Source: an uncultured Opitutia bacterium (GTDB lineage: Bacteria; Verrucomicrobiota; Verrucomicrobiia; Opitutales; UBA953). From it: a stretch of DNA of 64,000 bases. Every line of letters starts with the position of its first letter. Position 1 is the first letter of the stretch. Below, in pieces: positions 116-25,857 of this stretch. The notes beneath the pieces were generated by a model that worked only from the letters and a program-made list of their open reading frames with translations, did no database searches and was not told the DNA's origin. The position numbers were made by a program, and so were the translations under genes. The stretch is taken from contig CAIMFJ010000001.1 of NCBI GenBank assembly GCA_903840355.1, positions 1 to 64,000 of the forward strand, in the 5' to 3' direction.

Positions 116-151
116 AAGTGGCGGAGAGGATGGGATTCGAACCCACGATAC
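116..151. repeat. Left attachment site, tRNA-Ser 3' fragment
   Basis: This 36-bp sequence is identical to 25822-25857. Read on the minus strand it contains the T-arm, the 3' half of the acceptor stem, the discriminator G and an encoded CCA of tRNA-Ser. The homology stops immediately after it, so this is a fragment left by integration and not a working tRNA. Confidence 0.93.
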
Positions 152-261: not shown

Positions 262-1425
262 ATGGGCTCACTCCTCAGACAACTAGACCGCTCGAAGAAC
301 TGGCTGGCACGATACAAAGGTCCGCTTGGAAAATGGCTCCAGCGCAGCACCGGCACACCCGACAAGAGATTGGCCGAACAGATCATGCAGCAGTATGAGC
401 GCGACGCTCGCACGGCCGAGATGGACGGTGGCTTGATTACGAAAAAGGTAATCGCCAACGCCATCGAGATGGAACGTCTCGCGACGGGACGTGAGCTGCG
501 CTTCCCTTCCCTGCGCTCCTTTCTCAAGGACTTCCTGGAGGCCAAGACGATCAACAAGAAGACGGCCACCATCGCCTCCTATCGCAAGACGGTTAACCTG
601 TTCCTGGAGCACATGGGTGAGGAAGCCGACAAGGCCGTCAACCGGGTGCGCTCTTCAGACGTCCAGGCATTCATCCAGGCGCGGATGGACCAAGGCGCCG
701 CGCCGGCGACGGTCCGCCAGGGCATCGTCGTCCTACGGATGATGTTCAAGCGGGCGGTCGATGAAGGAATCTGCGCCATCAACCCCGTCGCCACGGTCGA
801 GGTGCCGGAGGGGGAAAGCAGCGCCAAGCTCCCCTTCACGGACGCGGAGGTCGAGGCGATCCTGAAGGCCTGCCCGGACGACGAGTGGCGCACCCTGGTC
901 TACTTCGGCTACTACACAGGAGCCCGCATGAGCGACTGCGTTAGTTTCACCTGGGACTCCTTTGACCTGGGCGACACCCCCAAGCTCACCTACCGCCAAA
1001 AGAAGACCGGCAAGGGATCTAAAGGCTGGGTGACCATAGCGGTCCACCCTTCCCTCAAGAAACGGCTCCTGGAGTGGCGCAAGAACTCTAAAGGCCCCAA
1101 GGAGGGGCACGTCCTACCCGGGCTGGCCGGGAAGCCCCTAGGGGGCAACAAAGGCCCTAGCACCCTCTTCATGCACATCGTCAAGGCGGCCGGCATCGAC
1201 CCCTGTCATTCCGTGACCGGCCGGAGCAAGCAGCCGCGTAAGTGTTTCCACAGCTTCCGGACCACCCTCGTCAGCCGGCTCCAGAGCCTGGAGGTCCCCC
1301 TCGAGACCCGCATGGATATCGTCGGCCACGCCAGCGCCGACGTCCATAAGGGCTACAGCCAGGGCCAATGGAACTCCGTCAAGTCAGCCATCAACAAGCT
1401 GCCCGACCTCACCGAGCGGGCCTGA
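262..1425 (+). CDS. int: Tyrosine-type site-specific integrase
   Basis: A 387-residue phage-type integrase that should catalyse recombination between the tRNA repeats. The N-terminal third is a basic arm-binding region. A SAM-like core-binding domain covers about residues 83-175, and the catalytic domain follows. The active-site set is visible as Arg222 (TGARMSD), His330 and Arg333 (HSFR), His356 (GHAS) and the nucleophile Tyr365 (KGYS). The ATG follows directly after the arm-type repeats. Length and motifs look complete, so the enzyme is probably active. No separate excisionase lies beside it; the helix-turn-helix protein at 13115-13462 could serve that role. Confidence 0.95.
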   Translation: MGSLLRQLDRSKNWLARYKGPLGKWLQRSTGTPDKRLAEQIMQQYERDARTAEMDGGLITKKVIANAIEMERLATGRELRFPSLRSFLKDFLEAKTINKKTATIASYRKTVNLFLEHMGEEADKAVNRVRSSDVQAFIQARMDQGAAPATVRQGIVVLRMMFKRAVDEGICAINPVATVEVPEGESSAKLPFTDAEVEAILKACPDDEWRTLVYFGYYTGARMSDCVSFTWDSFDLGDTPKLTYRQKKTGKGSKGWVTIAVHPSLKKRLLEWRKNSKGPKEGHVLPGLAGKPLGGNKGPSTLFMHIVKAAGIDPCHSVTGRSKQPRKCFHSFRTTLVSRLQSLEVPLETRMDIVGHASADVHKGYSQGQWNSVKSAINKLPDLTERA

Positions 1426-6096: not shown

Positions 6097-6107
6097 CCAA
6101 GACACCC

Positions 6108-9100
6108 ATGGCCGAGACACCCCGATCAGAGCGCAAAACGCAGAACCGCGTCATCGACCTCTTCACTGCCCCCAAGGGCCTTGGCTACCGCTACCTTGGC
6201 GAGTGGCACAAGCGCGACAACAACCGCTGCGTCGAAGTCGAACTACTTCACGCCAATCTAGCCACCCGGGGCTATGCACCCGCTCAGATCGCTGCCGCCA
6301 TCAAGAAGCTCGAGGACGCGGCCGACACGACCGGCATCAACCTGTATCAGGCGAACCTCCGGACCTACCAGCTCCTCCGCTACGGCGTCTCGGTCCAAAC
6401 GGCAGTGGGTAGGCCACATGACACCGTCAAGTTGATCGACTGGGATAACCCTGAGAAGAACGACTTCGCCTTGGCTGAGGAGGTCACCCTCAAGGGCGGC
6501 TACGAACGCCGGCCCGACATCGTCCTCTACGTCAACGGTATTGCCGTGGCCGTGATCGAGCTTAAGCGCGGTTCCGTCGAGATCGCCAACGGGGTTCGCC
6601 AGCTGATCACCAACCAGGAGCCCATCTTCAACATGGGCTTCTTCAGCACCGTCCAGCTCGTCCTGGCCGGAAACGACACCCAGGGCCTGCGCTACGGTAC
6701 GGCCGGCACCAAGGAAGAGTTCTTCGTTACCTGGAAGGGTGAAGGCGAAGTCGAGGCGTCTGACACCACCCCGGGGGCCCATCTGGATCGCCCGCTGTCC
6801 CAGATGTGCAACAAGACCAGGCTGTTGGACCTGATCCGGAACTTCATCATCTTCGACGCCGGCGTTAAGAAGGTCCCTCGCCCCCACCAATACTTCGGGG
6901 TCAAGTCAGCCCAAGAGCGCATCGCCAAGCGCGAAGGCGGCGTTATCTGGCACACCCAGGGTAGCGGCAAGAGCATCCTGATGGTTCTGATCGCCAAGTG
7001 GCTCATGGAGCACGACCCGGAGGCCCGCATACTCATCATCACCGACCGTGACGAGCTGGATAAGCAGATCGAGGGGGTGATGATGAACGCCGACGTCATC
7101 CCCAAGACTTCCAAGTCTCCCCGCATCAGCTCGCGGGCTGAGCTTATCGAGAAACTCGGGGCCACCTCCCCTCGCCTACTCTGCGCGCTGATCCACAAGT
7201 TCGACACCGCAGACCTCAAGGGCGAGCCGCCCAAGATCTCAGGCCGCTTCTACGTCTTCGTCGACGAGTGCCACCGCACCCAGGGCGGAGACATGAACCG
7301 GCAGATGAAGCGCTGGATGCAGGACGCCATCTTCATCGGCTTCACGGGCACCCCACTGCTCCGCAAGGACAAGCAGCTCACCCGGGACATCTTCGGCACC
7401 TACATCCACACCTACAAGTTCCACCAAGCCGTCGCTGACAAGGTCGTCCTCGACCTCAAGTACGAGGCCAGGAACGTGCCGCAGCAGCTCACCAACCGCG
7501 ACTCCATCGATAAGTGGTTCGAGCAGAAGACCAAGGGTCTGAACGACTACCAGAAGGCCGTCCTCCGCAATAAGTGGGCGACCATGGAATCCCTCCTTAG
7601 CGCCGGCGAACGCAAGCAGCGCATCATCGCTGACATCATCGAGGACTTCGGCCTGAAGCCCCGTCTCAATAGCGATCGCGGCACCGCGATCCTAGTCGCC
7701 GACGAGATCTACGACGCCTGTCATTACTTCAAGCTGTTCCAGAACACTGAGTTCGGCAGCCACGTGGGCATCGTGACCTCATACGAGCCTAACCCGACCG
7801 CAATCTCATGCGAGCCACCCGGCAGCACTGAGCGCTACAAGTTCGACGTCTACACGAACTTGGTCCTGAAGGATAAGGGGAAGACCACCAAGCAGTACGA
7901 GGATGATTTGAAGAAACGCTTCAAGGAAGAGCCGGCCAACATGAAGCTGCTCATCGTAGTCAGCAAGCTGCTGACCGGCTTCGACGCCCCGAGCTGCACC
8001 TACATCTACCTAGATCACCGGCTCCGGGATCATACCCTCTTCCAGGCCATCTGCCGAACCAATCGCTTGGACGGCGAAGACAAGGACTACGGCTACATCG
8101 TCGACTACAAGGAGATGCTGGGCAACGTCCAGGAGGCTCTCGCCGTCTACAACTCCGACGAGCTCGACACCGACCTGGGCGGTGGCGGCACCAATGACGT
8201 GAACATCAAGAACTGGCTGCAGGAAGGAAAGAAGCAGCTCGATGACTCACTCGAGGCCCTGCGCCACCTTTGCGAGCCCGTCGCCCACCCTCGCGAGATC
8301 GAACAGTACCTACGCTACTTCTGCGGAGACGCAGCCGATGCCGAGGCCCTGGGCCAGACCGGCCCGATGCGCGACTCGTTCTACAAGTCTGTCGCAGGCT
8401 TCGTACGAGCCTATGCAGCCATTTCGGCCGACATGACCGAGGCGGGCTATTCAGAGGCCCAGGCCACAGCCATCCAGAAGGAGGTCGAGCTCTACAGCGA
8501 AATCCGCTCAGCCATCAAGAAGCACTCGGGCGAGGAGCTGGACACCAAGCCCTACGAGGCCGACATGCGCCACCTGCTAAACACCTACGTCCAGGCCGAT
8601 TCGGTCAGGGATCTGGGCAACCTGGGTAACCTCACCCTCACTGAGCTCATCATCAAGACCGGCATGCACGATGCCATCGCCCAGAAGCTTAACGCCAAGG
8701 GTAAGCTGTCCAAGAACGCCGTCGCTGAGAGCATCATCAACAACATCCGCATCACCCTGAAGCGCGACCAGCTCACCGACCCCCAGTTCTACGAGCAGAT
8801 GTCCAAGCTTCTGGATGACCTGATCGCCAAGCGCCGCGATGACTCCGCTGACTACGAGGCCTTCCTGAAGGACGCCGAAGCCTTGGTGAAGAAGATCTCC
8901 ACCAAGCACTACAGCGCCGGCGTACCCCAGGCCCTCCAAGGCAGGCCCCTGGCGACCGTGGTCTACAACAACCTGCCTCGAATCCTGACGGCAGCGGCCC
9001 CTGACGCCACGGCTGACCAGAGCGCTGAATACGGCGAACGGCTAGTAAACCTAGCCCTATCCATCGATCAGGTGATGCGCGAAAGCGCGCCTGCCGGATG

Positions 9101-9218
9101 GAAGGGGGATTCGGCTCGCGAGGCCCAGGTACTGAACGCCCTCTTCCCGGTCATGAACTACGACCGTGCCGCGACTGAGGCGCTCTTTGAGCTACTCATG
9201 AATCAACCCGGCAACTGA
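6108..9218 (+). CDS. hsdR: Type I restriction endonuclease and translocase subunit
   Basis: A 1036-residue motor and nuclease subunit. The N-terminal PD-(D/E)xK nuclease is visible as RRPD with Asp137 and the ELK triad at about 151-153. It is followed by a superfamily 2 helicase motor with Walker A TQGSGKS (about 284-290), the DEAD-box variant DECH (about 386) and motif III GFTGTP. The C-terminal region would contact HsdM. All key residues are present, so the complete HsdRMS enzyme appears functional. It lies 11 bp after hsdS and its stop overlaps the next start by one base (TGATG). Confidence 0.96.
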
Positions 9219-9934
9219 TGTCTGAAACCATCAAGTTCGGGGACCTCGAGATCCCTGTCGCCCGGAAGTCGGTTAAGAACGTCCACCTATCCGTATACCC
9301 CCCTCACGGGAAGGTGACCCTGGTCGCGCCTAACGGGACACGGCTTGAGGTCGTACGCGCCTACGTGGCAACGAAGCTCGCCTGGATCAAGGCCCAGCAG
9401 CGCAGGATGAAGGAACAGGCCAGAGAGACGCCCCGGATCTTCGTGGAACGGGAAAGCCATCACATCTGGGGGCGCCGCAGGCTCCTCAGCGTGGTCGAGA
9501 AGGACGAGAAGCCATCGGTCCGGATGGATCACCGCCGGCTCATCCTCACGGTCAGACCCAAAACCCCCACCCCCAAGCGCAACGACATCATGCAGGAGTG
9601 GCATCGCTCCCTGCTGCATGAGGCCATCCCTCCCCTGATCGCCAAGTGGGAGCGGAAGCTACGCGTCAAGACATCGGCCTACTTCCTTCAGCGCATGAAG
9701 ACCCGCTGGGGTGGCTGCAACCCCAAGGCCAAGACGCTCCGGTTCAATACCGAGCTGATCAAGAAGCCCAAGGACCTGCTGGAGTACGTCGTCGTCCACG
9801 AGATGATCCACCTCCTGGAGCCAAGGCACAGCGAACGGTTCATGGCCCTCATGACCGAACACTACCCTTCCTGGCAGGAAGCCAGGGCCGAACTCAACGC
9901 CCTGCCCCTCGCCTCGGAGATCTGGCGCGAATGA
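9218..9934 (+). CDS. YgjP-like M48-type metallopeptidase (DUF45/WLM)
   Basis: A 238-residue zinc peptidase of the YgjP (DUF45) family. The zinc motif HEMIH starts near residue 194, followed by HSERF, which supplies the third ligand. A conserved MKTRWGGCNP block precedes it, typical of the family. Genes of this family are often found directly after hsdR in type I loci, but their substrate and role there are not known. It is translationally coupled to both neighbours (one-base overlap with hsdR, ATGA overlap with the next gene). It should therefore be made with the restriction enzyme, perhaps to control its turnover; that is inference. Confidence 0.9.
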   Translation: MSETIKFGDLEIPVARKSVKNVHLSVYPPHGKVTLVAPNGTRLEVVRAYVATKLAWIKAQQRRMKEQARETPRIFVERESHHIWGRRRLLSVVEKDEKPSVRMDHRRLILTVRPKTPTPKRNDIMQEWHRSLLHEAIPPLIAKWERKLRVKTSAYFLQRMKTRWGGCNPKAKTLRFNTELIKKPKDLLEYVVVHEMIHLLEPRHSERFMALMTEHYPSWQEARAELNALPLASEIWRE

Positions 9935-10709: not shown

Positions 10710-11522
10710 TTAACCTTTTGCCTTCCAATTAAAGGGCCCCGACGCCGACCTAGCCAAGATCGCGCTAGCCGCGGCCGACCAGGAACTAAAGAGGTAGTCT
10801 TGCTTGAATACAAAGGCACCGCCATCAGGACTCAGCACCCCCTCCTTGACTAGATACTGCCGAAGGTTGCGAATACGTTCAGGGATGGCCGGGGTATCCT
10901 CTGTGACGGCAAAGCTACCGGCCTTGACCAGGAAGCCGTTGGGCATCTCCTGCCCCTGGGCTTTCACGCCCTTGGCAGACATCACGAGAAGGTTGCTGGC
11001 GGCCGTGGACTTGGCGGCCGAGCGGGTGAACATGCCGAGGCCGAGCGCCGGGAAGCAAAGAAGCATCTCGGTCAGGAAAGTTTCCGCGTCGGCCATATCG
11101 GACTCGGACATTGACGGTTGATCCGGCTTGTTACCGTTCTCAAGGACGCAGCGCTTCGCATGCCCAGCCAGCTCCACAAGCCTGGACTCGATGTATTGGA
11201 TATGCGCCTTGTTGAGGCTCTCATCCTTGCTCGTGAACGAGACGCACATTGTCCAGAAGTCCTTCTTCACGAAATGACTCTCCAGGCGACCAAGGACGGG
11301 GTCGCCCTCGCCGATGTAGACATGAGGCAAAGCGCTGTCCTCATCCTGCCCCACCAGAACATAGATGCCGGTCCGCTTCAGCTCCTTACGCTTCTTGGCT
11401 TCAGAGAGCAGAGCCCGCGGGAATACCAGCCCATGCCCGGTCCAGTTCGACTTCTCGATAGTACGGACGCCATCGGGGTCACCTTCAGGGAGAAAGATCT
11501 TAAGGCTATACGGGGATGCCAT
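10710..11522 (-). CDS. GIY-YIG nuclease-like protein with DUF4357 domain
   Basis: A 270-residue protein. A GIY-YIG nuclease-like domain is seen at about residues 50-150, with GIY at 52-54 and YIG at 69-71, and a DUF4357 domain lies at the C terminus. The start at MASPYSL was preferred over longer frames because the N-terminal motif (FLPEGDPDGVR, then SNWTG) is how this family usually begins. These proteins occur widely in defence regions, but their function is unproven and they may be DNA-binding more than cleaving. The gene converges on the hsd operon and is divergent from the replication module. Confidence 0.88.
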   Translation of the reverse strand: MASPYSLKIFLPEGDPDGVRTIEKSNWTGHGLVFPRALLSEAKKRKELKRTGIYVLVGQDEDSALPHVYIGEGDPVLGRLESHFVKKDFWTMCVSFTSKDESLNKAHIQYIESRLVELAGHAKRCVLENGNKPDQPSMSESDMADAETFLTEMLLCFPALGLGMFTRSAAKSTAASNLLVMSAKGVKAQGQEMPNGFLVKAGSFAVTEDTPAIPERIRNLRQYLVKEGVLSPDGGAFVFKQDYLFSSWSAAASAILARSASGPFNWKAKG

Positions 11523-11875
11523 CCGGCAAAGAAACCACCCTGCCGGAATCATGGCAAGCGTCGGGCCGGAGCACCTGAAGGGCAACCCTGCCTTAGGCAC
11601 GTCGTTGTCCGTACAGTCCATTTCTTTGCTATTGCCTGGTTTTCGGAGGCCGGAATCCGCCATAGGAATCCCTCCTCGGGAAAATAATATTCCGACCAGG
11701 CGCCCTCAGTCGCTGGTATATAAACCTCTATTAGGTAAGCCATTACGACCCAACCATCGTTCGCCGGAATTGTCTGTGGATAGGTTGTGGGCACCGATTG
11801 ATTAACTCCCACGCGGGGCCGTGACACTGTGACAGTGTGACGACCAACCCCCGCAAACCCGGCCATACACACCCT
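11523..11875. other. Divergent control region, possible replication origin
   Basis: This non-coding stretch separates the GIY-YIG gene from the replication module. It holds a single DnaA-box-like site on the minus strand (TGTGGATAG at 11775-11783, one mismatch to the complement of TTATCCACA), an AT-rich patch around 11690-11720, and the palindrome listed separately. A lone DnaA-like box is weak evidence, but the combination with a palindrome upstream of primase and ATPase genes makes an origin or a control region plausible. Confidence 0.4.
11820..11842. repeat. 23-bp palindrome, left copy
   Basis: The core is ACACTGT-G-ACAGTGT (11824-11838), a perfect 7-bp inverted repeat around one base, with CGTG before it and GACG after it. 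The same 23 bp occurs once more at 15948-15970 in the opposite orientation with a single mismatch. It sits about 35 bp upstream of the first gene of the replication module, so it could be an operator or a replication initiator binding site. Confidence 0.75.
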
Positions 11876-13024
11876 ATGAAGTCCAAGCGCAAGACCCCCT
11901 CCCCCTCCATTCATCTCCAGGCCAAGCTGAAGCCCAAAGCCCTGTCCGCGTCGAGACTCACGACCAACGCATCCGCCACGACGCCGGCGACGAGTGCGAA
12001 GACGGCGGCGGGGACGGTGGCGGAGACGGCGGCAACATCTGCCGCGTCGTCAACGACATCAACATCGATATCGGCATCGACGTCGACATCCTCGCAACCG
12101 ACAACATCTGATCAGAAACCGAAGCCCACCCGCGAAAACATTAGCGGCACCGGCTCGAGCCTCAGCCAGATGCTCTCGAACTTCCCCGAGATCGTCGGCC
12201 ACGATGAGTACGATTTCCGCGGACTGGCGGACCAGAATGAGATGGCGGTCGCCAATAACTATGAAATTTGCCGCGAAGCGATTCGGCAGTCCTTGCTGCG
12301 CATACCGGCCCTGTACTCCCAGGCGCTCGCTGACACCTTGGCCGAGGTGCTCCGCTCGGAGCCAGCTCTCATCGTATTGCCGGCCGAGCACGGCGACATG
12401 CACTACTTCAGTTCGATGTCTGAAGCCTTGTGCATCTGGCAGGCCTGCGCCCCCGGCACCCCCTTGCCACCGCCTTTTCCGAGCATCATCGACAAGGTCC
12501 GTGAATACCGCAGCAAAGAACACTATGAGCCCGCGGTTGGCGTCGAACTCATGCAAGGACCGGTCTACGTCAAATCCGAGGCCAGCCAGCGAATCTCCAA
12601 GACCTTCCTGGTCCACGTGCCCATCGTCGGAGACATGGCTAGGCTGAATGACGCGTCCAGACAGATCGAGAAAGCCATCCAGGCCTCCGGACTACTTAAC
12701 AACAACGGGGGCGGCCGAGAACCTACGCATGTCCTTGCAATGGGCTACTACCGGCTAAGTCAGGGCAACAAGCACACGAAGGCGCGGCTTTGGTACAAGG
12801 ACAAGCTCCGCAAGGACGACGAGGGGGTCACCCCCTTCGGGAGGAAAATCTATGAGGTGGCGATCGACGGCAAAGAAGAGTCTCCTTCGGAGCCGGCATG
12901 GTCGGATGGCGTCAGCCGCATCGAGGAATTGGTGATGCCGCTCGCGAATCGGCTCATGCAGCTTGTCGCCTACGGACTGATCAAACCTACGCCCAAGGAA
13001 GACGATATGGCTGATGGGGCTTAA
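11876..13024 (+). CDS. Unknown protein, first gene of the replication module
   Basis: A 382-residue protein that I do not recognise. The first 85 residues or so are basic and then very rich in Ser, Thr and Ala, so they are probably disordered; the DNA there is a near-repeat of ACR and TCR codons. From about residue 90 a folded domain follows, with no motif I can assign. An upstream GTG at 11837 lies inside the palindrome, so the ATG is preferred. Its place before a helix-turn-helix protein, primase and ATPase, and directly after the palindrome, suggests a replication initiator or regulator that binds the palindrome, but this is only inference. Confidence 0.78.
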   Translation: MKSKRKTPSPSIHLQAKLKPKALSASRLTTNASATTPATSAKTAAGTVAETAATSAASSTTSTSISASTSTSSQPTTSDQKPKPTRENISGTGSSLSQMLSNFPEIVGHDEYDFRGLADQNEMAVANNYEICREAIRQSLLRIPALYSQALADTLAEVLRSEPALIVLPAEHGDMHYFSSMSEALCIWQACAPGTPLPPPFPSIIDKVREYRSKEHYEPAVGVELMQGPVYVKSEASQRISKTFLVHVPIVGDMARLNDASRQIEKAIQASGLLNNNGGGREPTHVLAMGYYRLSQGNKHTKARLWYKDKLRKDDEGVTPFGRKIYEVAIDGKEESPSEPAWSDGVSRIEELVMPLANRLMQLVAYGLIKPTPKEDDMADGA

Positions 13025-13025
13025 T

Positions 13026-13056
13026 TTCGGATAACCCCATAGGGGGGTTATCCGAA
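13026..13056. other. Strong hairpin between the first and second module genes
   Basis: A perfect 13-bp stem (TTCGGATAACCCC and its complement) closes a 5-nt loop, starting two bases after the stop codon of the preceding gene. No T-run follows, so it is not a standard terminator. It may attenuate, protect the mRNA end, or bind a protein as a dyad. Confidence 0.7.
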
Positions 13057-13114
13057 GGCCGAAAAATGGATGCGGGAGGACTTTCGTGAACACTTGCGGA
13101 CGAGAATCCCTCCC

Positions 13115-13462
13115 ATGTCCAACACTGACAAAGCCGGCGCCGTCCCGGCCAACAAAGACGGCACCACCCAGTCCCAGAACATCCGCCCCGAGTGGCTGCG
13201 CCTCCCCAAGCCGGGGCAGCGCTGCCCGGCCTCGGGCCTGTGCCGCTCGTACCTCCACACCCTGGTGCGCGACGGCAAGGTCAAGACGTCGAGCATCCGC
13301 GAGCGCGGCCGCAAGACGGGCATCCGGCTGATCAGCTACGACAGCCTGATGGCCTTCATCGAGAAGGGCGCCCAGCCCGCCGTGGAGCCCAAACCCGAGC
13401 CGGCCGAGCAGCCCAAGCCGGCACCCGTCGAGCAGGCCCATCAGGAAGGGGGTGCCCAGTGA
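13115..13462 (+). CDS. Small helix-turn-helix DNA-binding protein
   Basis: A 115-residue protein. Its central part (LRLPKPGQRCPASGLCRSYL, then a basic stretch and GIRLISYDSL) matches the excisionase/MerR-like helix-turn-helix proteins found beside primase genes in verrucomicrobial mobile elements. The last 35 residues are Pro, Glu and Lys repeats and probably disordered. The ATG at MSNTD is chosen because the conserved part starts shortly after; an in-frame ATG lies 15 codons upstream. It may be the excisionase or the regulator of the module. Its stop overlaps the primase GTG start. Confidence 0.82.
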   Translation: MSNTDKAGAVPANKDGTTQSQNIRPEWLRLPKPGQRCPASGLCRSYLHTLVRDGKVKTSSIRERGRKTGIRLISYDSLMAFIEKGAQPAVEPKPEPAEQPKPAPVEQAHQEGGAQ

Positions 13463-14466
13463 TCGCCAACCCCCTGCTCCGCCGGGCGACCTTCTCGGAG
13501 CTCTTCGGGCTCCTGGGCTTGCCGCCCATCAAGGGCACCAGCTGCCCCTGCCCGTTCCACGAAGACAAGAACCCTTCGTGCTCGGTGTTCATCGGGGCCA
13601 ACGGCCACGAGATCGCCAAGTGCTTCAAGGGCTGCTTCTGCGGGGACGTCTACGACATGTACGCCCGCGCCTTCCGCTGTGATCGCAAGACGGCCCTCAT
13701 GGAGCTCAACCATAAGCTCGGCATCGCGATTGCGACTTTCCAGCTGGACCGCCCCCTCCATGAACGCTTCCAGCCGGCCCCTAAGTCGACTCAGCGCGAC
13801 GAGCGCCTTCGCCCCTCCCTTTCCCTGGGCCTGGGCGACAATCGGATGGTAGTAGACCTGTCGACCCTACGACGCATCCACGAGGGCGGCGTCCGGCTGG
13901 CCCTGGAGCGCGGCTTGCTGGGCTTCGGCGATTACATGGGCCGACCGGCCTGGGTCATGAAGGACAGGTCCGGAATGCTGATGCAGGCTAGGCGGCTGGA
14001 CGGCAGGACCTGGTTTCGGGACACCAAGGCCATCACCCTGAAGGGATCCGACGCCAATCACCTGCTCGGGGTGCAAGAGGCCGCCGAGGCCGACCTGCTC
14101 TTCGTCTGCGAGGGCGGGCCCGACATGCTGGCCGCCCATGCCCTGGTGCACGAGATGGCCCTACTGAAGGCCGCCGATCCGTTAAGAATCGCCGTGACCG
14201 GTCTGATGGGGGCGTCCATGCGTCCCCGCCGGGCGACCCTGGCCGGCCTGAAGGCCAAGCGGGTGGTCATCTGGTCCCATGCCGACGAGGCGGGCCGTGA
14301 CGGTGCCAAGGAGTGGAAGCGCTGCTTCTGGTCCAAGGACCGGACGGTCGATATCATCGCGGCCGACGAAATCCTCGCCGGCCTGAAGGACCTGAACGAC
14401 GTGGTGTCGGCGGAGGGCGGCCTGGCCGCGATCATCAAGAAGCTCATGGAGGTGCGCCATGGCTGA
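13459..14466 (+). CDS. DnaG-like primase, CHC2 zinc finger plus TOPRIM
   Basis: A 335-residue primase-like protein. The CHC2-type zinc finger uses Cys29/Cys31, His34, Cys55, Cys59 and Cys61 (PCPFHED then KCFKGCFCGD). A TOPRIM domain follows with the acidic motif VCEGGPDM near 217-224 and later HADEAG. The start is a GTG that overlaps the stop of the upstream gene (GTGA), with AAGGGGG just before it; the longer frame upstream would overlap that whole gene. It probably primes replication of the element. It is shorter than chromosomal DnaG and lacks its helicase-binding domain; the following ATPase probably supplies that function. Confidence 0.9.
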   Translation: MIANPLLRRATFSELFGLLGLPPIKGTSCPCPFHEDKNPSCSVFIGANGHEIAKCFKGCFCGDVYDMYARAFRCDRKTALMELNHKLGIAIATFQLDRPLHERFQPAPKSTQRDERLRPSLSLGLGDNRMVVDLSTLRRIHEGGVRLALERGLLGFGDYMGRPAWVMKDRSGMLMQARRLDGRTWFRDTKAITLKGSDANHLLGVQEAAEADLLFVCEGGPDMLAAHALVHEMALLKAADPLRIAVTGLMGASMRPRRATLAGLKAKRVVIWSHADEAGRDGAKEWKRCFWSKDRTVDIIAADEILAGLKDLNDVVSAEGGLAAIIKKLMEVRHG

Positions 14467-15889
14467 GGAGTTCGAACATCAACCCTTCCCCACGCACCTG
14501 TTGCCCCCGAAGGTCCGGGCGATGGCCGAGGCCGTGGAGGCCTACACGACCACCGGGCACGACATGCCCGGCGCCATCGCGGCTTCCGCCCTCAACTGCA
14601 CCATCGGCGGCGGGGTCTACGTGAAGGCCAAGGGCGACCCCCAGGTCACCCCGACGACCACCTTCACCGTCGTCGTGGGGGTGAGCGGCGGCGGCAAGAG
14701 CATGGTCGGCAAGCTGCTGCTGGAAGCGATCGAGGTCGAACAGCAGCGCCTGCAGGAAGAATTCCGGAAGAGCACCCTGCCGGTCATGAGGGCCCGGTTG
14801 ATGGAGATCGAAGACGAGCTCAAGCGTCTGGAACGGGAAGGCAGCCGGCCCCGCAAGGGCCAGGCCGACGATCCCGATGCCAGGCGCAACCGACGCACCG
14901 AGCTCCTCGGGCTCAAAGACCAGCTCGAGTTCGCCTTGGATTGCCCGCAGATGATCAGCGAGGACCTGACCGTCCAGGTCTTGGTCCGCATCCTCAACGC
15001 CAACAAGTCGCGGCTCATCCTGCTTTCGACCGACGCGCGGGAGACCATCAACAACATCATGGGCCGCTACAACAACGGCAAGCCGGACGACAGCCTGCTG
15101 CTCAAGGCCTTCTCGGGGGAGTCCTACAACTTCTCCCGCCGGGGCCAGGGCAAGCTGATCGAGACCCTCAACGTCCAGAAGATGGCCGTCTCGAGCCTGC
15201 TGATGCTGCAGCCGGATATCGCCGAGGAGATGGTCGAGAGCGAGGGCCTGCAGGGCAGCGGCTACCTGCAGCGCACGCTCTTCGCCTGGACCGACAACCA
15301 TCCTGGACGCGCCACCCTCAGCAAGCCCATCCCGGGCGAGGTCAAGGAGGCCTACGACCAGCTTATCACCACGCTCCTGCGGACCTACTACTGGTCCGAC
15401 CCCAGGGTGCACTTCACCCTGTCGACGGAGGCCGACGAGGCGATCAAGGCCTACAAGCTGGCCAAGCAGATCGCGGGCGGGGACGGCTCCCACCCCATGT
15501 GGACGTTCCAGACCCGCGACGCCGAGCTCGTGATCCGTATCTCGGCCGGGTTGCACGCCGGCCTCCACGAGGACAAGTCCCACGAGGTCGAGATCTCCCT
15601 GGAGACAGTCCAGGCCGCCATGCAGATCATGGACTGGTACAGCCGGTTCCGGATGATGATCGCCGACAAGATGGCGGACAAGAGCGGCGACAAGGTCATG
15701 ACCAAGCTCCGGGACCTCGCCACGCTGTTCCCGAACGGCTTCAGCTGCCGGGAAGCCCAGCGCAAGCGCATCGCCGGCATGCACAAGGGCAAGGACGCCG
15801 TGCAGGCCATCCTGGACCAGAAGGTGAAGGACGGCGTGCTGCAGCCGACCGAAGACGACCCGCCAAGGTACAAGTTCGCCCTCCGCTAG
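14459..15889 (+). CDS. DUF3987 P-loop ATPase, probable replicative helicase
   Basis: A 476-residue DUF3987 family protein. The Walker A motif GVSGGGKS lies at about 74-81. A charged helical insert covers about 95-145, and a C-terminal winged-helix-like region runs from about 420. The family occurs in mobile elements next to primase genes and is thought to act in replication, as a helicase or initiator, though this is little tested. It overlaps the primase gene by eight bases and ends the operon, with a terminator just downstream. Confidence 0.88.
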   Translation: MAEEFEHQPFPTHLLPPKVRAMAEAVEAYTTTGHDMPGAIAASALNCTIGGGVYVKAKGDPQVTPTTTFTVVVGVSGGGKSMVGKLLLEAIEVEQQRLQEEFRKSTLPVMRARLMEIEDELKRLEREGSRPRKGQADDPDARRNRRTELLGLKDQLEFALDCPQMISEDLTVQVLVRILNANKSRLILLSTDARETINNIMGRYNNGKPDDSLLLKAFSGESYNFSRRGQGKLIETLNVQKMAVSSLLMLQPDIAEEMVESEGLQGSGYLQRTLFAWTDNHPGRATLSKPIPGEVKEAYDQLITTLLRTYYWSDPRVHFTLSTEADEAIKAYKLAKQIAGGDGSHPMWTFQTRDAELVIRISAGLHAGLHEDKSHEVEISLETVQAAMQIMDWYSRFRMMIADKMADKSGDKVMTKLRDLATLFPNGFSCREAQRKRIAGMHKGKDAVQAILDQKVKDGVLQPTEDDPPRYKFALR

Positions 15890-15894
15890 GCACA

Positions 15895-15926
15895 GGCCCG
15901 GAAGACCTAGGTTTTCCGGGCCTTTT
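15895..15926 (+). terminator. Rho-independent terminator of the replication module
   Basis: A 9-bp stem (GGCCCGGAA and TTCCGGGCC), with a self-complementary ACCTAGGT in the loop, is followed by TTTT. It begins six bases after the stop of the DUF3987 gene. Confidence 0.88.
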
Positions 15927-15947
15927 CGCGTCCAACGTCGTCCGACC

Positions 15948-15970
15948 CGTCACACTGTCACAGCGTCACG
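15948..15970. repeat. 23-bp palindrome, right copy
   Basis: The reverse complement matches 11820-11842 at 22 of 23 positions; the single difference falls in one arm and makes this palindrome imperfect (ACACTGT-C-ACAGCGT). It lies just outside the module terminator and about 70 bp beyond the end of rloB. The two copies bracket the four-gene module in inverted orientation. Confidence 0.75.
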
Positions 15971-16038: not shown

Positions 16039-16674
16039 TCACTTCAGGACATCAGGATGGAAACGGTCAATCTCACCGACGATGAATTCCGCGAATCCGA
16101 TGCCCTGCAAACCATAGGGATTGGAACGTGGTTGCCGGGCGAGATTGGCCTTCAAGTTGCGAAGGCTACTCTCTGAGACGAAGCCGGGAGGAATCGACCC
16201 TTTCTGGTATCCCTTGATGATCTTCCGGGCCCACTCCAAGCACGCTTCGGAACGACACGGGGACTCGAAATGGCCTGCACTGCCGAAGCGCAGCCACGAC
16301 TGAAAATCCTCCTCGTCCAGGTGCAACGCGAGAAAATCCTCGAAGTTATGGAACGAGAAATAGAAATCAGGGAGACTTTGTCCCTTGTTGATGTAGAGCC
16401 TGGAACAGCCATCGACGTCCCGATGATAAAGATCGAAGTCCGCCCATATGCTGATCTTGGTGTTCCTATTCTCCTTCTTGGCCTTAAGGAAATGTTTCTC
16501 GAGCTGTACGTAATGCCCATTGCCGGCCACGTACTCATCCTTGGTGAAGAACTTAAGCGGCACGCTCCAAACATCAGGGGCTGCCGGAAGCTTATCGAGG
16601 AAGGCCTGCAGGCCTTGGATATAGGCCCGCTCCGAGTACCCCTCGCAGACGATGACATGTCGGACAGTTGGCAC
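16039..16674 (-). CDS. RloB-like TOPRIM protein
   Basis: A 211-residue RloB-like protein. The TOPRIM fold is visible as VCEGYSE near residues 9-15 (catalytic Glu) and ADFD near 78-81 (paired Asp). FHNFEDFLALH follows, the counterpart of the conserved NPCFE block of the family. It lies 5 bp after the ATPase gene on the same strand, so the two should be made together. RloA/RloB pairs were first described inside type I restriction loci, and an hsd operon lies in the same element. The likely role is phage-triggered nuclease action controlled by the ATPase. Confidence 0.85.
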   Translation of the reverse strand: MPTVRHVIVCEGYSERAYIQGLQAFLDKLPAAPDVWSVPLKFFTKDEYVAGNGHYVQLEKHFLKAKKENRNTKISIWADFDLYHRDVDGCSRLYINKGQSLPDFYFSFHNFEDFLALHLDEEDFQSWLRFGSAGHFESPCRSEACLEWARKIIKGYQKGSIPPGFVSESSLRNLKANLARQPRSNPYGLQGIGFAEFIVGEIDRFHPDVLK

Positions 16675-16679
16675 GGATT

Positions 16680-17969
16680 TCAGAGCGCCGGATGGGGAAT
16701 CCCGGAGTAGAGTCCGTCCAGGTATTGTTTGCGGAAGTTGGTGACGTTGCGGATGTCCTCGCCCTCGTCGCGGATGTCAACCAGCCGGCGGGTGATCGTG
16801 CCATTGGCCATGGTCTTGCGTACCAGCGAGACCTCTGAAAGCCGCAGGACGGAATCATCCAGGATGTCCGTGTTATGGGTGCTGAACACGAGCTGCGCCC
16901 CCTTCGGGTTCCGGCTCCGCTTCTTGAAGAGCATGACGATTTCACGCATCAGCAAGGGATGAAGGGAGCACTCCAGCTCATCGATGATCAGAAGGCCGCC
17001 AACATTGAGGGAATGGAGAACCAAACCCATCAACCCGACCAACCGCTGGGTTCCGGCAGATTCATGCTTCGCAAACTCGAATGAGATAACGTTGCCATCC
17101 ACATCCTTGTGCTTGCTGATGGTATGAAATGCATGACGGGTCCCAGCCTGCGCATTAATTTGCATGAAAGTCCCGGAACGAAACGGCTCATTCTGCCCCA
17201 CCTCCTTCTTCAGGATCTCTAGACCGTGGATATCGATGTCGAGCCTACGGACCACATCAACGATTTCCTGAAGTGCCGCATTGCCGTCGCCACCGAGGGA
17301 CGAAGCCAGGATGTTCACTGCGATGACCGGATGTATCCCGGGCTGGTTGCTATCGAAAGAATTAAGCCGGCTGATGTAGCCGAAGGCCACCTTCAGGTCC
17401 GCGCTCAATCCAGAATAGGCGACCCCGATCCGATTCAGGACGGGACGCGTCTGCCTCCCTTCCCCGTCGGAACACTCAACGCGGATGACTTCGGCAAGCT
17501 TCTCAAAGGAATAAGTATCAGAAAGGATAGCTGGCGAAAATTCCGGATTCATCTGATGGATGCGGAAAACATCCTCACCGTCCTTGCTCAATGCCTCTTC
17601 CTTGATCGTTGAAGAATCGAAAACCAAGCGGTAGATGAAACTGCTCTGACCATTCACGAAAGTGAGTTCGAAAGTCGTGTCCTGGAACTTACGGTTCAGC
17701 ATATTCGGGTCGAAGTGCTCGAGGAGATTAGCTTCTCCCCTGACCAGTGCTCCAAGCGTATTGAACGCCTTCAGGATGTTGGTCTTGCCTGAGGCGTTGG
17801 CACCGAAGAATGCCATGCACGGGACTAGGCGCTGCTTTCCGGGGCCATCCAGGAAAGGCATGACTTCCTGCTCCTTGTAACGGTTGGGAGCCTTACCCTC
17901 CCCAAAAGTGAAGTCTAAGCGCAGCTCCAAGATGGATCGGAAATTCCTGATTAAGAATGAAGACAACAT
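16680..17969 (-). CDS. RloA-like ABC-type AAA ATPase
   Basis: A 429-residue ATPase of the SMC/ABC-like AAA_21 group. Walker A is GANASGKT (56-63), Walker B is IIDELE near residue 337 with SLHPLL after it, and STHN forms the switch. It begins with the usual FLIRNFRSI strand. With the RloB-like partner it forms an ATPase-TOPRIM two-gene system, similar in layout to RloA/RloB and to PARIS (AriA/AriB). It is transcribed away from the HNH nuclease gene across a 225-bp gap. The trigger it senses cannot be told from sequence. Confidence 0.9.
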   Translation of the reverse strand: MLSSFLIRNFRSILELRLDFTFGEGKAPNRYKEQEVMPFLDGPGKQRLVPCMAFFGANASGKTNILKAFNTLGALVRGEANLLEHFDPNMLNRKFQDTTFELTFVNGQSSFIYRLVFDSSTIKEEALSKDGEDVFRIHQMNPEFSPAILSDTYSFEKLAEVIRVECSDGEGRQTRPVLNRIGVAYSGLSADLKVAFGYISRLNSFDSNQPGIHPVIAVNILASSLGGDGNAALQEIVDVVRRLDIDIHGLEILKKEVGQNEPFRSGTFMQINAQAGTRHAFHTISKHKDVDGNVISFEFAKHESAGTQRLVGLMGLVLHSLNVGGLLIIDELECSLHPLLMREIVMLFKKRSRNPKGAQLVFSTHNTDILDDSVLRLSEVSLVRKTMANGTITRRLVDIRDEGEDIRNVTNFRKQYLDGLYSGIPHPAL

Positions 17970-18194
17970 GGAATAAGCCCTTGATTGTGAGTTTTTGGCA
18001 GCACCAAGCCGGCCGTCAACATCATATGAGCAAAAAAACTGTTTATATCAAAAGGCCCTCGATTCCTTCCTCAATTCTCGGAATTGAAGGCGTCGGCACC
18101 AATCAGGAGTCGACTGATAAAGTATATCACTTCGTTAAGCTTCTCGGGCGTAGCTCGCCTGGACAGCCGGCCGACGATCTGAAAGCTGCCCTGG

Positions 18195-19187
18195 GTGCGA
18201 TACTGGTGGGTAAACCAAGGCCAGACTTACCGCGAGGAGCGGGAGGGTGGTTACCTATGGTCGCCGAAACGCAAGCGCGGCCGGGATGGCGAAGCCACCG
18301 TCCGGAACCCTTTCTATGAGTACATGCGGGATGTCGCCCCCGGGGACATGGTCTTCTCCTACCGGGACGGCCATGTGGTCTCCTGCGGCCTGATCACCTC
18401 CTACGGCTACGATAGCCCGAAGCCTTCGGAATTCGGCAAGAACGGGAAGAACTGGTCGCAGTTCGGCTGGAGGGTCAACGTCACCTACTTCGACGCCAGC
18501 CCATTCCGGCCCAAGGACCGGCTGCAGCGCATCGCCCCCTTCCTCGAGGAGGAACACGCCCCCCTGAAGGCGGACGGCGGAGGCAAGGAGCTCTACTTGA
18601 CGAAAATCTCACCCGAGTTCGCAGGGGTCATCATCGACGCCCTAGGCGCCCCGGCCCGGACCTGCCGCGACGCGGCCCGCCACCTCAGCATGCACGACAC
18701 CACCGAGGACTTCGCGGACACGCTCGCCGAGCAGGCCGGCGAGTACCTGGTCGACGCGGTGAAGCAGGACATCCAGATCCCCGAGACCACCCGGCTCGCG
18801 ATCGTGAAGGCCCGCATCGGCCAGGGCCTCTTCCGGGAAGAGGTCGCCAAGGTGGAACGCCATTGCCGCCTGACAGGCGTCGAGGACCGCGACCATCTCG
18901 TCGCCAGCCACATCAAGCCCTGGAAGGACTCTGATAACCGGGAGCGCCTCAGCGGCCACAACGGCCTGATGCTCACCCCCACCCCAGACCATCTGTTCGA
19001 CAAGGGCTTCATCTCCTTCGCGGACGACGGCCGCCTCCTCTACGCCACCCGCGTCAACCGGGCCGCCCTGGCCAAGATGAAGATCCCGGAAGAAGGCTTC
19101 AGCGCCGGACGGTTCTCGCCCGACCAAGTCGACTTCCTGAAATACCACCGGGATTACGTGTTCAAGAAGGCCATCAAGGCGGCCTGA
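18195..19187 (+). CDS. EVE-like domain fused to HNH endonuclease
   Basis: A 330-residue two-domain protein. The first 170 residues (starting RYWWVNQGQTY, with LWSPK and GDMVFSY) look like an EVE/PUA-type reader of modified bases. The C-terminal part has an HNH_2 nuclease core (SHIKPW, then HNGLMLTP and DHLFDKGFISF). Proteins of this design are modification-dependent type IV restriction enzymes that cut DNA carrying modified cytosine, which suits defence against phages with modified DNA. The start is GTG, matching where the family begins; a different-frame ATG frame upstream overlaps it and is not supported. Confidence 0.9.
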   Translation: MRYWWVNQGQTYREEREGGYLWSPKRKRGRDGEATVRNPFYEYMRDVAPGDMVFSYRDGHVVSCGLITSYGYDSPKPSEFGKNGKNWSQFGWRVNVTYFDASPFRPKDRLQRIAPFLEEEHAPLKADGGGKELYLTKISPEFAGVIIDALGAPARTCRDAARHLSMHDTTEDFADTLAEQAGEYLVDAVKQDIQIPETTRLAIVKARIGQGLFREEVAKVERHCRLTGVEDRDHLVASHIKPWKDSDNRERLSGHNGLMLTPTPDHLFDKGFISFADDGRLLYATRVNRAALAKMKIPEEGFSAGRFSPDQVDFLKYHRDYVFKKAIKAA

Positions 19188-19212
19188 GCCCTCTCCTGCC
19201 TAGTTTACGTTT

Positions 19213-19308
19213 CTCATTATTTGCTCAATGTGGTTGAGTAAATGAGCCATAATTCAAACTTTACATTGTTTGAGTTTCCGTCAGATTACTCAATGTGGTT
19301 AAGCAAAT
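19213..19308. promoter_or_regulatory. Two operator-like repeats of the abiE operon
   Basis: The first site (19213-19246) is a near-perfect inverted repeat, ATTTGCTCAA-TGTGG-TTGAGTAAAT. The second (19286-19308) is a weaker version with the same centre. Both share CTCAATGTGGTT, 65 bp apart. The second covers the GTG start codon of abiEi. AbiEi antitoxins are known to repress their own operon by binding two inverted repeats, and this layout fits. Confidence 0.8.
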
Positions 19309-20158
19309 AGAGGAAAAGTTAAACAACCTAGAGCTCCTGCTCGAGGGAGGTCTGCTCGTGGACTCACAGCTACTCAGGGACAAAGGATACTCCACCAGCC
19401 TGGTCAGTCACTACGTCTCCACGGGGCGCATCGAGCAGGTCACTCGGGGCGTCTACCGGCGTAAGCTTGGTCAGGCCGAGTGGCAGCAGGAGATCGGCAA
19501 GCTCACCTGGCAGCAGGCCGTGGTCTCGCTTCAGACCGTGCTGTTGCGCGACCCGCTCTACGTCGGAGGACTCAGCGCCCTCGAACTGCAAGGCTTCGCC
19601 CACTTCGTGCAGCAAGGCCCTTCCACCGTCCACCTCTACGGTCCGAAGCCCCCGCCCTCCTGGATCCACAAGCTCCCGCTCGAGGCTAAGTTCAAGTACC
19701 ACAACGACCGCACCCTGTTCGGCAACGAACCGATCCACCACGGCCTGACCAACCAGTCATGGAAAGACGACCGGAACAAGGGGTTCATCAAGGTCGACGA
19801 GGATCACCACTTCAGGAGCCCGGCGGGTCCGCGCGGATGGCCCCTCACACTCTCCACGCCTGAACGCGCCGTTCTCGAGCTCCTCGACGAGATCCCCGAG
19901 GACGAGAGTTTCCATCACGTGGACAAGATCTTCGAGGGGCTATCCACGCTCGTCCCCCGGCGCGTCGACAAACTCCTCAAGGACTGCACGAGCATCAAGG
20001 TGAAGCGCCTGTTCCTCTTCTTCGCCTCAAAGCACCAGCACGCCTGGGCCAAGCAGCTCAAGACCCAGGACTACGAACTGGGCGCCGGAAACCGGGTGAT
20101 CGCCAAGGGCGGACGGCTGGACAAGCAGTTCAAGATCACCGTACCCTCCGACCTCTGA
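19295..20158 (+). CDS. abiEi: AbiEi-type antitoxin and transcriptional repressor
   Basis: A 287-residue antitoxin of the type IV AbiE system. A winged-helix N-terminal domain (about 5-60, with LLVDSQLLRDKGYS, then YVSTGRIEQVTRGVY) should bind the operator repeats, and the C-terminal domain neutralises the toxin. The GTG start is chosen because the family-conserved first helix is needed. A GTG at 19358 has a better ribosome site (GGGAGG) but would remove that helix. The stop overlaps the toxin start by one base, so the two are coupled. Confidence 0.9.
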   Translation: MVKQIEEKLNNLELLLEGGLLVDSQLLRDKGYSTSLVSHYVSTGRIEQVTRGVYRRKLGQAEWQQEIGKLTWQQAVVSLQTVLLRDPLYVGGLSALELQGFAHFVQQGPSTVHLYGPKPPPSWIHKLPLEAKFKYHNDRTLFGNEPIHHGLTNQSWKDDRNKGFIKVDEDHHFRSPAGPRGWPLTLSTPERAVLELLDEIPEDESFHHVDKIFEGLSTLVPRRVDKLLKDCTSIKVKRLFLFFASKHQHAWAKQLKTQDYELGAGNRVIAKGGRLDKQFKITVPSDL

Positions 20159-21072
20159 TGGCCATGAACGAGCAATACAGACGTCAGGTAGCCTTGCTGG
20201 TCAGGACGCTGCCCGTCGTGGCCCAGGAACGGTGTTTCGCCCTCAAGGGCGGCACGGCTATCAACCTCTTCGTCCGGGACATGCCTCGACTGTCGGTCGA
20301 CATCGACCTGACCTACATCCCCCTGAGCACCTGGGCCGAGAGCACCGCGGACATAAACCGGGCCATGGCGAAGATAGCCGGCGAGATCTCGCGCAGGATT
20401 CCCGGCGCAGTCTGCACCCTGCCGCCCGACAAGGACGGACTGTTGACCAAGATCTTGGTCCGCGCCGACGGCGTTCAGATCATGGTCGAGGTGACCCCGG
20501 TGCTCCGTGGCTGCGTCTACGAACCGGAACTCCGCTCGACGTCCGCCAAGGTCCAGAGGGACTTCGGCTTCGCCGAGACCCAGGTGGTGTCCTGGGCTGA
20601 CCTCTACGCCGGCAAGGTCATGGCCGCGCTGGACCGTCAGCACCCCAGAGACCTCTTCGACGTGAAGGACCTACTGTCGAAGGAAGGAGTGACCGCACAG
20701 CTTCGCGCAGCGTTCGTCGTCTACCTGCTCAGCCACCACAGGGCCATGCACGAGGTCCTCAATCCGACCCGCAAGGACATCTCAGGTGAATTCGTCCAGA
20801 GCTTCGCAGGCATGACCACTGAGCCGGTGCAACTAGATGAGTTGCTCGAAGCACGGGAAAAGCTGGTGGACGAGATCGTGGGCCGGATGCCGACCAGCCA
20901 TCGCGAGTTCCTGCTCTCCTTCGAGAAGGGCGAACCGGACTGGGGCAAGCTGGAGATCGCCCATGCCAAGGACCTGCCAGCCGTCAGGCACCGCATGCTT
21001 AACCTCGCGAAGGTGACGGAGGCCAAGCGCACCGAGCTTGTGAGCAAGCTGGAGCGCATCCTAAAGGCCTAA
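20158..21072 (+). CDS. abiEii: AbiEii-type nucleotidyltransferase toxin
   Basis: A 304-residue toxin of the DUF1814/nucleotidyltransferase family. The signature is LKGGTAINLF (29-38) followed by SVDIDLTY (46-53), which carries the catalytic acidic residues; DLYAGK and DLFDVKDLL near 145-170 complete the core. AbiEii-type toxins block growth, by modifying tRNA ends in related enzymes, when infection upsets the antitoxin, giving abortive infection. All expected motifs are present. It is the last gene of the operon, followed by a hairpin. Confidence 0.93.
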   Translation: MAMNEQYRRQVALLVRTLPVVAQERCFALKGGTAINLFVRDMPRLSVDIDLTYIPLSTWAESTADINRAMAKIAGEISRRIPGAVCTLPPDKDGLLTKILVRADGVQIMVEVTPVLRGCVYEPELRSTSAKVQRDFGFAETQVVSWADLYAGKVMAALDRQHPRDLFDVKDLLSKEGVTAQLRAAFVVYLLSHHRAMHEVLNPTRKDISGEFVQSFAGMTTEPVQLDELLEAREKLVDEIVGRMPTSHREFLLSFEKGEPDWGKLEIAHAKDLPAVRHRMLNLAKVTEAKRTELVSKLERILKA

Positions 21073-21080
21073 GATCATGT

Positions 21081-21104
21081 GGAGATTAGCAGGCCCTAAT
21101 CTCC
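21081..21104 (+). terminator. Hairpin after the abiE operon
   Basis: A perfect 9-bp stem (GGAGATTAG and CTAATCTCC) closes a 6-nt loop nine bases after the abiEii stop. There is no T-run, so termination may be weak. The following 150 bp up to the convergent KAP gene hold only small AT-rich dyads (for example TGCAAATTAATTGCA at 21171-21185). Confidence 0.55.
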
Positions 21105-21252
21105 GCAAATCCTACGTAAATAACCGTCTGACTAATAAGTTGGGGTTAATTGGTGCCCCCTTCAACTTAATGCAAATTAATTGCAATAAGGAGACAGGGC
21201 AGACTCCCCCTATCCGATTGCAACGATGCACGCAGAGAGCGCTCCCGTGATG

Positions 21253-22638
21253 CTATCTCTCAATCGCAAGGAGTGATTCAATCTTCCGGTATATTTCGGT
21301 GTATTTCACCCAACCCCGGAAACCAGAGTTATCGAACAGCGCCCTCATCTCAACAGGCGAACCTGTGAAGTAGTTCTTGAGGCGCCCCTTAAGTGCCTCG
21401 TTGGCATCCGAAGAAGATAAATTGAATCCGTGTGCAAGGAGCGAGAACCGATGCGGCACCAAATCACCGTGACGATAACGCTCCAATCGAGACAACCGTG
21501 CAATGATCTCATCAAGCCCCTCAAAGGAGTGCGCGGATAAGCCAAATTTCCTGTAATCTGAAGGAGACACAACCTTCAGGAACGACATGAGGAAAAGTCT
21601 CACGTCGTTGATGTAATCAATGCGCTCAGGAGGCACACCCGGCCTAAAACGAGCATGTGCCATAACACGCATTACTTCCTGAAACCCACGAAGAGGCACC
21701 TCGTAGACAGAGAGAAAATCCTCAACCATCTCAATCAGCGCCCTTGCATCACTGGATCCAACCGGAATGCGGAGATACTTACGAAAATAGTTTTCAACAA
21801 ATGCAGTGCGCTCATGTGTGCGCAATTGCAGCAAAGAGGGCAAAGATACGCTTCGATGCACGAATTTCCGAAAGTACTCATTGAAGTTTAATCCTGCCCC
21901 AAAAACGGACTTCGCAGCCGACTCAAGCTGCCCCACGTCCACCGCCAGGACAAACACGACTCCCTTGATATCGAACAGGTGCTTGATTACCTCAAGGTAA
22001 GCTATTGCGAAATCAGGACGACAACGATCGAGTTCGTCTACGAAGATGTAAGTGCGGACACCCTCGCCCCCACAGGCTAAACGCAAGCAATCCTTCACCT
22101 CAGCCATACACTTCTTCCGCTCGACCAGCTCCGTGAGGACTGAATTGCTAGGTGCCGATTCGGACGCGGCTCCAGCAGCCGCAGAAAGGTCGAAGCCGCC
22201 AATCGCAAGGGCTACATACTTGTTCACAACGCCCCTAAACCCTCCGGCCAGGAAGCGGGCAGCCTTCTCAAAACTTTTGGCAATCCTGTCGGCCGCATCA
22301 TCATTCTTCCCCCTTAGGGATTCGACCACCGAAAGGGTTATTACCGCCAAAGGATCGGAATGATAATCGGACTCCCAAGCATTAATGCATACAACCAAAG
22401 GAGGCCTTGAACCTACCCCATCACCAGGACCAGCGCCGCGATTCGCAAGCTCACGCTTCCACATCTCAATAAAGGTTGTTTTCCCAGCGCCAAACGGAGC
22501 CCCGAGGCCAATAACCAAACTTCCATCTACAATGCTCTGCTCAGCCGCGACATAACCCTCCAGGTCCGAGAGAAAGGCCTTCCGGTTAAGCAAATCTGGC
22601 TGGACTGAAACAGAGGCAGTTTGGGCTTTGTTATCCAT
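21253..22638 (-). CDS. KAP family P-loop NTPase
   Basis: A 461-residue KAP-type NTPase. Walker A is GAPFGAGKT (46-54), followed by the insert typical of the family. Walker B is FVDELDRCRPD near residue 200, and AVDVGQLESAAKSVFG follows as the sensor region. The insert has moderately hydrophobic stretches around 115-160, and many family members are membrane-linked, so that is possible here. KAP ATPases occur in several phage defence systems, usually with an effector partner. No obvious effector is fused here; the two small upstream genes on the same strand are candidates. Codon use is AT-richer than in the hsd genes. Confidence 0.9.
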   Translation of the reverse strand: MDNKAQTASVSVQPDLLNRKAFLSDLEGYVAAEQSIVDGSLVIGLGAPFGAGKTTFIEMWKRELANRGAGPGDGVGSRPPLVVCINAWESDYHSDPLAVITLSVVESLRGKNDDAADRIAKSFEKAARFLAGGFRGVVNKYVALAIGGFDLSAAAGAASESAPSNSVLTELVERKKCMAEVKDCLRLACGGEGVRTYIFVDELDRCRPDFAIAYLEVIKHLFDIKGVVFVLAVDVGQLESAAKSVFGAGLNFNEYFRKFVHRSVSLPSLLQLRTHERTAFVENYFRKYLRIPVGSSDARALIEMVEDFLSVYEVPLRGFQEVMRVMAHARFRPGVPPERIDYINDVRLFLMSFLKVVSPSDYRKFGLSAHSFEGLDEIIARLSRLERYRHGDLVPHRFSLLAHGFNLSSSDANEALKGRLKNYFTGSPVEMRALFDNSGFRGWVKYTEIYRKIESLLAIER

Positions 22639-22716
22639 CGTTCATGGATACTGCCCACATCCTTGATTGGCGTCAACGCAGGCAAAGCCCTGACGTCGGA
22701 TTAAATCGCTTACTAC

Positions 22717-23163: not shown

Positions 23164-23170
23164 TTTCGTG

Positions 23171-23434: not shown

Positions 23435-23624
23435 GTGTTGTGTGTTGGAAACGCGTGCGCACGGCTCCTTTCGGAACCTTCAGCTTTCAGCTCTGGTGAG
23501 TATAGTCACCCAGGGCGGAGTCCTTATTTGCGCGGAGGGTGCCCCCCCTCATTTCAGAAAAGGTTGCACCGCTCAGACGCCGAATCAAGCACCCGAATGA
23601 CTTGGCATAATTACTGCGCCTTCC

Positions 23625-25821: not shown

Positions 25822-25857
25822 AAGTGGCGGAGAGGATGGGATTCGAACCCACGATAC
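25822..25857. repeat. Right attachment site within tRNA-Ser
   Basis: Identical over 36 bp to the left repeat. This copy forms the 3' end of the intact tRNA-Ser gene, so integration rebuilt the tRNA. Confidence 0.93.

Follow-up and report, generated by a model that had tools for sequence, protein, structure and literature searches.

The window analyzed here, by which we mean the whole 64,000-nucleotide stretch of DNA, carries an integrative island of 25.8 kb that extends from approximately position 116 to 25857 and is located at a tRNA-Ser(GCT) gene of a host placed in Verrucomicrobiota/Opitutae. The island has a pair of att repeats and a tyrosine integrase and it looks excisable. Within it lies a module of four genes in the order p1 (no known family), helix-turn-helix (HTH) protein, Toprim primase and DUF3987 protein. 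The features are as follows:

116..151, + strand: left att repeat, 36 bp, one of a repeat pair
262..1425, + strand: tyrosine integrase of the island
11820..11842, + strand: iteron triplet 1 (site 1), three GTGAC units with an 8-bp period, sequence CGTGACACTGTGACAGTGTGACG
11837..13024, + strand: p1, first gene of the module, 395 aa from a likely GTG start, without known family and fast-evolving
13115..13462, + strand: small helix-turn-helix protein, HTH_17/AlpA-like, with profile matches under the curated cut-off
13459..14466, + strand: DnaG-type primase with zinc ribbon and Toprim
14459..15889, + strand: DUF3987 (YfjI-type) putative helicase, residues 400-476 a predicted winged helix
15894..15923, + strand: inverted repeat forming a terminator-like hairpin, followed by a T-rich tail
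15948..15970, - strand: iteron triplet 2 (site 2), inverted relative to triplet 1, past the hairpin and between convergent genes
25822..25857, + strand: right att repeat, overlapping the 3' end of tRNA-Ser(GCT)
25825-25915, - strand: tRNA-Ser(GCT)

A copy of the whole island with 100.000% identity is present in a second species of the genus (G041:C2, loci L024 and L025), in which its flanks differ, and for this reason we conclude that it moved recently in a very recent horizontal transfer. Defense cargo is dense at positions 2447-9218, 10710-11663 and 16039-25289 of the window. Apart from type I restriction-modification, the cargo of the island includes a YgjP-like peptidase and genes with PADLOC matches to PDC-S14 (DUF4357), an AbiL-like pair, an HNH nuclease, an AbiE pair, PDC-S20 (KAP NTPase) and an AriA/OLD-like ATPase. 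There is no capsid or terminase gene among the annotated genes. An Rfam search returned tRNA only, and a sigma-70 scan returned no promoter.

The DUF3987 protein is identified by a strong profile match (PF13148, 166 bits against a gathering score of 27, E 1.6e-48). This is a domain without an assigned function that occurs in satellites, islands and phages, and its helicase role has so far only been predicted (PMC5862659). Modeling of the full-length protein by AF2 from a single sequence was unusable (pLDDT 39). A model of residues 400-476, obtained with two sequences, has a predicted helix-helix-helix-strand-strand order at a mean pLDDT of 81. A Foldseek search groups this model with winged helices, Z-alpha, IscR, MecI and SelB being examples; the TM-scores are ~0.6 and no E-value is < 0.001. 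The C-terminus of DUF3987 is thus a predicted winged helix. A PDB sequence match to BurrH was rejected, as it is the sum of many weak repeat matches.

The preliminary description of this locus had reported two 23-bp copies of a palindrome, inverted relative to each other, before the first and after the last gene of the module. These copies are indeed found at 11820-11842 and 15948-15970, with site 2 matching the reverse complement of site 1 at 22 of 23 bases, and when flanking DNA is included the match lengthens to 34-nt arms that are 88% identical. Internally, site 1 is composed of direct repeats with an 8-bp period, GTGACACT-GTGACAGT-GTGAC. The two triplets are 4.1 kb apart, around the operon, with triplet 2 beginning 24 bp after the terminator-like hairpin. 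No strongly AT-rich stretch occurs between or beside them, the lowest GC content of any 40-bp segment being 38% at ~100 bp before site 1. Sites 1 and 2 are the only places in the window, and also the only places in the 2.27-Mb home genome, where the iteron pattern occurs. Each site is short, so a chance resemblance between them needs to be considered. However, only 0.08 matches are expected in the window at <=3 mismatches, and the recurrence of triplets at the same two places in five of five elements, as described below, already refutes coincidence, to which we assign next to no weight.

Modules related to that of the window were found with DUF3987 identities of 100% (G041, the same as L003), 78% (L004), 54% (G004), 35% (G012) and 34% (G020). 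As the G041 sequence is identical to that of the window, this gives five distinct sequences, namely that of the window plus L004, G004, G012 and G020. Two inverted triplets of TGAC, 3.8-4.2 kb apart, bracket the module in all five. The exact TGAC triplet with an 8-bp period is present exactly twice in L004 and in the stretches around the G004, G012 and G020 modules, once before p1 and once, inverted, after DUF3987. Site 2 is downstream of both DUF3987 and a terminator-like hairpin in each of the five sequences, the hairpin being conserved in the related modules. The proposed linkage between pair and module, which would fail if homologous modules lacked the pair or if the pair were found unlinked, is therefore upheld in 5/5 related modules. 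Genome-wide, there are no exact triplets beyond the pair in G000 and G020, while other genomes contain 1-3 unlinked exact triplets each that are mostly of a TGACCAGT-like type. When viral contigs (56 stretches) and 388 genomes belonging to the phylum were scanned for the exact pattern, many of the matches were simple tandem repeats, and the only place at a module was that of the window itself. Scans of the viral contigs for DUF3987 gave zero relatives.

Comparison of the ten sites from these five elements also alters the view of what is conserved. The TGAC core is invariant in 30/30 units, and units one and two are followed by an A in 18 of 20 cases, whereas dyad symmetry ranges from 63 to 87%. 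What is conserved is a set of three direct TGAC iterons with an 8-bp period, and we rejected a palindromic operator as the conserved feature because the dyad varies while the triplet of TGAC does not.

Triplet 1 overlaps p1 in that an in-frame GTG at 11837 falls inside the third iteron. The first protein had been described as having 382 residues; its alternative start, ATG 11873, gives 383 aa, and GTG 11837 gives 395 aa. We consider GTG 11837 to be the likely start since M-T-(T/N) is kept at that point in five of five relatives. In every one of the five distinct sequences, p1 probably starts within the third iteron of site 1 (GTG or ATG, then AC). The remainder of p1 evolves rapidly, with only 37-39% identity (window 11837-13024 against L021 and L004) as compared to 61-90% for the HTH gene, the primase gene and the flanking DNA. 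The first codons of p1, which lie over the iterons, are conserved, so that a hypervariable gene occupies a conserved setting. Homology of p1 to the same-position genes of L140, L141 and L144 was rejected as not significant; that of L141 does have a YEY-R-E-like stretch in common with p1.

This overlap can also be read as gene control. The sites could be operators of the AlpA-like HTH protein or of p1, with the upstream copy repressing, the downstream copy aiding through DNA looping and neither having a role in replication. The location of triplet 1 over the probable start codon in 5/5 elements fits with this idea, as does conservation of the HTH protein, which matches HTH_17 below the cut-off in all five relatives and is the best conserved part of G012 and G020 relative to the window (~55-60%). 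Arguing against this idea is that p1 is just 37-39% identical among elements that have the same iteron. Additionally, in the distant loci L138, L139 and L140 both sets of iterons are found where the DUF3987 gene ends and not near an operon start. We consider a purely regulatory role to be unlikely.

Cassette exchange had also been offered as a function of the sites. In this case the triplets would be recombination or exchange boundaries of the module, or binding sites for an integrase or excisionase. The cargo past site 2 does differ between the window and G004, with their alignment breaking at ~16011. However, this break occurs ~40 bp beyond site 2 and not inside it, and on the left the two sequences remain homologous across site 1 and as far as position 11925 within p1. 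Furthermore, the att repeats are located elsewhere (116-151 and 25822-25857) and have nothing in common with the triplets. A boundary function thus appears very improbable.

The protein that binds the triplets can be tentatively addressed from patterns of divergence. Between the window and G004, which have iterons in common, the DUF3987 C-terminus is 79% identical and the rest of the protein 50%. In G012 and G020, in which the iterons differ, the C-terminus has diverged like the remainder (33%). Because of this difference, the C-terminus of DUF3987 is our leading candidate for the triplet binder. This is not proof, since good conservation is also seen in the HTH protein, which could be the binder instead.

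To look beyond the close family as well, we used a pair test in which two iteron triplets have to be inverted relative to each other and one of the two has to lie close to the stop codon of DUF3987, with 40 shuffles per locus. This test replaced an earlier strict same-period scan after DUF3987 stops that had missed unevenly spaced arrays. A pair with <=3 mismatches is present in 11/24 DUF3987 loci, and shuffles reached a value as low in one of the 24 only. The 11 loci comprise the five of the close family and six outside of it (L137, L138, L139, L140, L141 and L160), while about half of the distant loci gave no significant pair. Arrays in distant loci are built from GTGACA at 9-bp spacing, GCCAAAA, TTTCGCC or CCCAAAA. 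Their positions follow more than one layout. For example, in L160 the arrays enclose the operon and overlap p1 at its first codons. The same is seen by eye in L144, for which the pair test is not significant (P ~0.2), and the bracketing distances in L160 and L144 are ~3.5 and 3.9 kb. In L138, L139 and L140 both arrays are at the 3' end of DUF3987, ~250-290 bp apart, and in L138 and L139 they flank an AT-rich stretch. We found no description of iterons for DUF3987 or YfjI in the open literature that was searched.

The preliminary description knew of no described system with such a layout; a bracketed layout is already known from satellite phage P4. In the P4 record (X51522) 8-bp type 1 repeats stand on both sides of the operon whose last gene is alpha, upstream in ori (9310-9413) and past the alpha terminator in crr (4314-4585). 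The window likewise has short iterons upstream of a replication operon and past the terminator-like hairpin that follows the last gene, with ~4.7 kb separating the two in P4. Both systems also involve a zinc-ribbon/Toprim primase, a helicase and winged-helix DNA binding, the last being only predicted in the window. The alpha protein uses a winged helix to bind its repeats and is active both as a Toprim primase and as a helicase (PMC4234260). There are also differences. The iterons of P4 are numerous, their orientation is mixed and its crr contains two 120-bp repeats. The ~21-bp triplets are short in comparison to the P4 arrays, and the P4 iteron is TGTTCACC as opposed to GTGACA in the window. 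Alpha is a single polypeptide with a D5-type helicase, whereas the Toprim primase and DUF3987 of the window are encoded by separate genes, so that the P4 arrangement of Toprim, D5 helicase and winged helix on one chain is absent. When the profiles of DUF3987 and P4 alpha were compared directly, they had only the P-loop in common.

Other replicons share some of these traits. PICI/SaPI elements are integrative satellites whose origins have two short-iteron sets beside the initiator gene (PMC6092414). Their sets are close together, 3' of the initiator with an AT-rich region between, in contrast to the 4.1-kb separation in the window, which does not show this arrangement; L138 and L139, whose two sets lie 3' of the initiator on either side of an AT-rich region, do show it. 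The portion of the PICMI description that we draw on (PMC10803314) concerns elements of Vibrionaceae, reports no iterons and gives an order of int, unknown gene, AlpA-type HTH and DUF3987 that resembles L138, L144 and L160. The window also combines an integrase, an AlpA-like HTH protein (HTH_17 under the curated cut-off) and DUF3987. It differs from PICMI in its tRNA-Ser site (fis in PICMI), its 25.8-kb size with cargo (~6-7 kb in PICMI), its separate Toprim primase and its Verrucomicrobiota host, with no helper phage known. Because integration site, size and host differ in this way, we do not file the island as a PICMI. Finally, the minimal replicon of pRN1 needs sequence both upstream and downstream of a primase-helicase operon and has a winged helix on its replication protein (PMC4234260). 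Its downstream element is a 100-nt stem-loop and not iterons, and pRN1 is an archaeal plasmid with an archaeo-eukaryotic primase and SF3 helicase.

We favor the interpretation that the triplets, each made up of 8-bp TGACA-type units, are two inverted halves of an iteron origin of the island, bound by the initiator of the operon, which is probably DUF3987, with autorepression arising from the start-codon overlap. We consider this likely since the pair is conserved and linked to the module, has analogs in distant loci and resembles the P4 layout, and since the island looks excisable. The earlier suggestion that a copy past the terminator points to a replication site gains support from the conserved pair, from analogous distant pairs and from the ori/crr layout of P4. 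In outline, the island would excise and the origin would be used afterwards. The initiator, most likely DUF3987 through its C-terminal winged helix, would bind both triplets and melt DNA, and the neighboring Toprim primase may then prime replication by analogy with P4 alpha at ori/crr. Looping or handcuffing of the two triplets may also occur, and loop-based control is a possible second role of the sites. Because triplet 1 holds the p1 start codon, initiator bound there should repress its own operon.

A broader version of this proposal is more tentative, and we judge it to be a possibility that is somewhat less probable than its opposite. DUF3987 (YfjI) proteins may be helicases that recognize origins, using the C-terminal winged helix to read a private 8-9-bp iteron, on replicons that carry two inverted triplets. 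One layout that recurs would have the first triplet fused to the operon start codons, and binding of the initiator together with pairing of the halves would then act as one switch that selects between expression of the operon and replication. What is apparently new is the proposed use of iteron origins by DUF3987 replicons, with separate primase and helicase genes and with a triplet fused to a start codon. DUF3987 thereby gains a concrete candidate origin sequence in one lineage. This sequence also provides a rule for searching others, namely inverted triplets of 8-9-bp iterons at the operon ends or after the helicase gene, and suggests that a P4-like bracketed ori/crr layout also exists in replicons with a helicase non-homologous to alpha.

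Several additional observations concern the elements that carry these modules. The Streptomyces plasmid locus L147 (NZ_CP107792.1), which has no significant iteron pair in the pair test, has the order primase/polymerase, YfjI (DUF3987), HTH and integrase plus an FtsK gene, and resembles an actinomycete integrative element. Minimal PICMI-like islands occur in Verrucomicrobiota at L138 (5068-10163), L144 (reverse strand) and L160 (3297-7984). In these islands int is directly followed by an unknown gene, HTH, a primase or other gene and DUF3987, with int and the unknown gene overlapping by 4 nt in both L138 and L144. Lastly, the G012 (L022) and G020 (L023) modules are located ~0.5-1 kb from a tRNA-Ser(GGA) gene, while the island of the window uses another serine tRNA.
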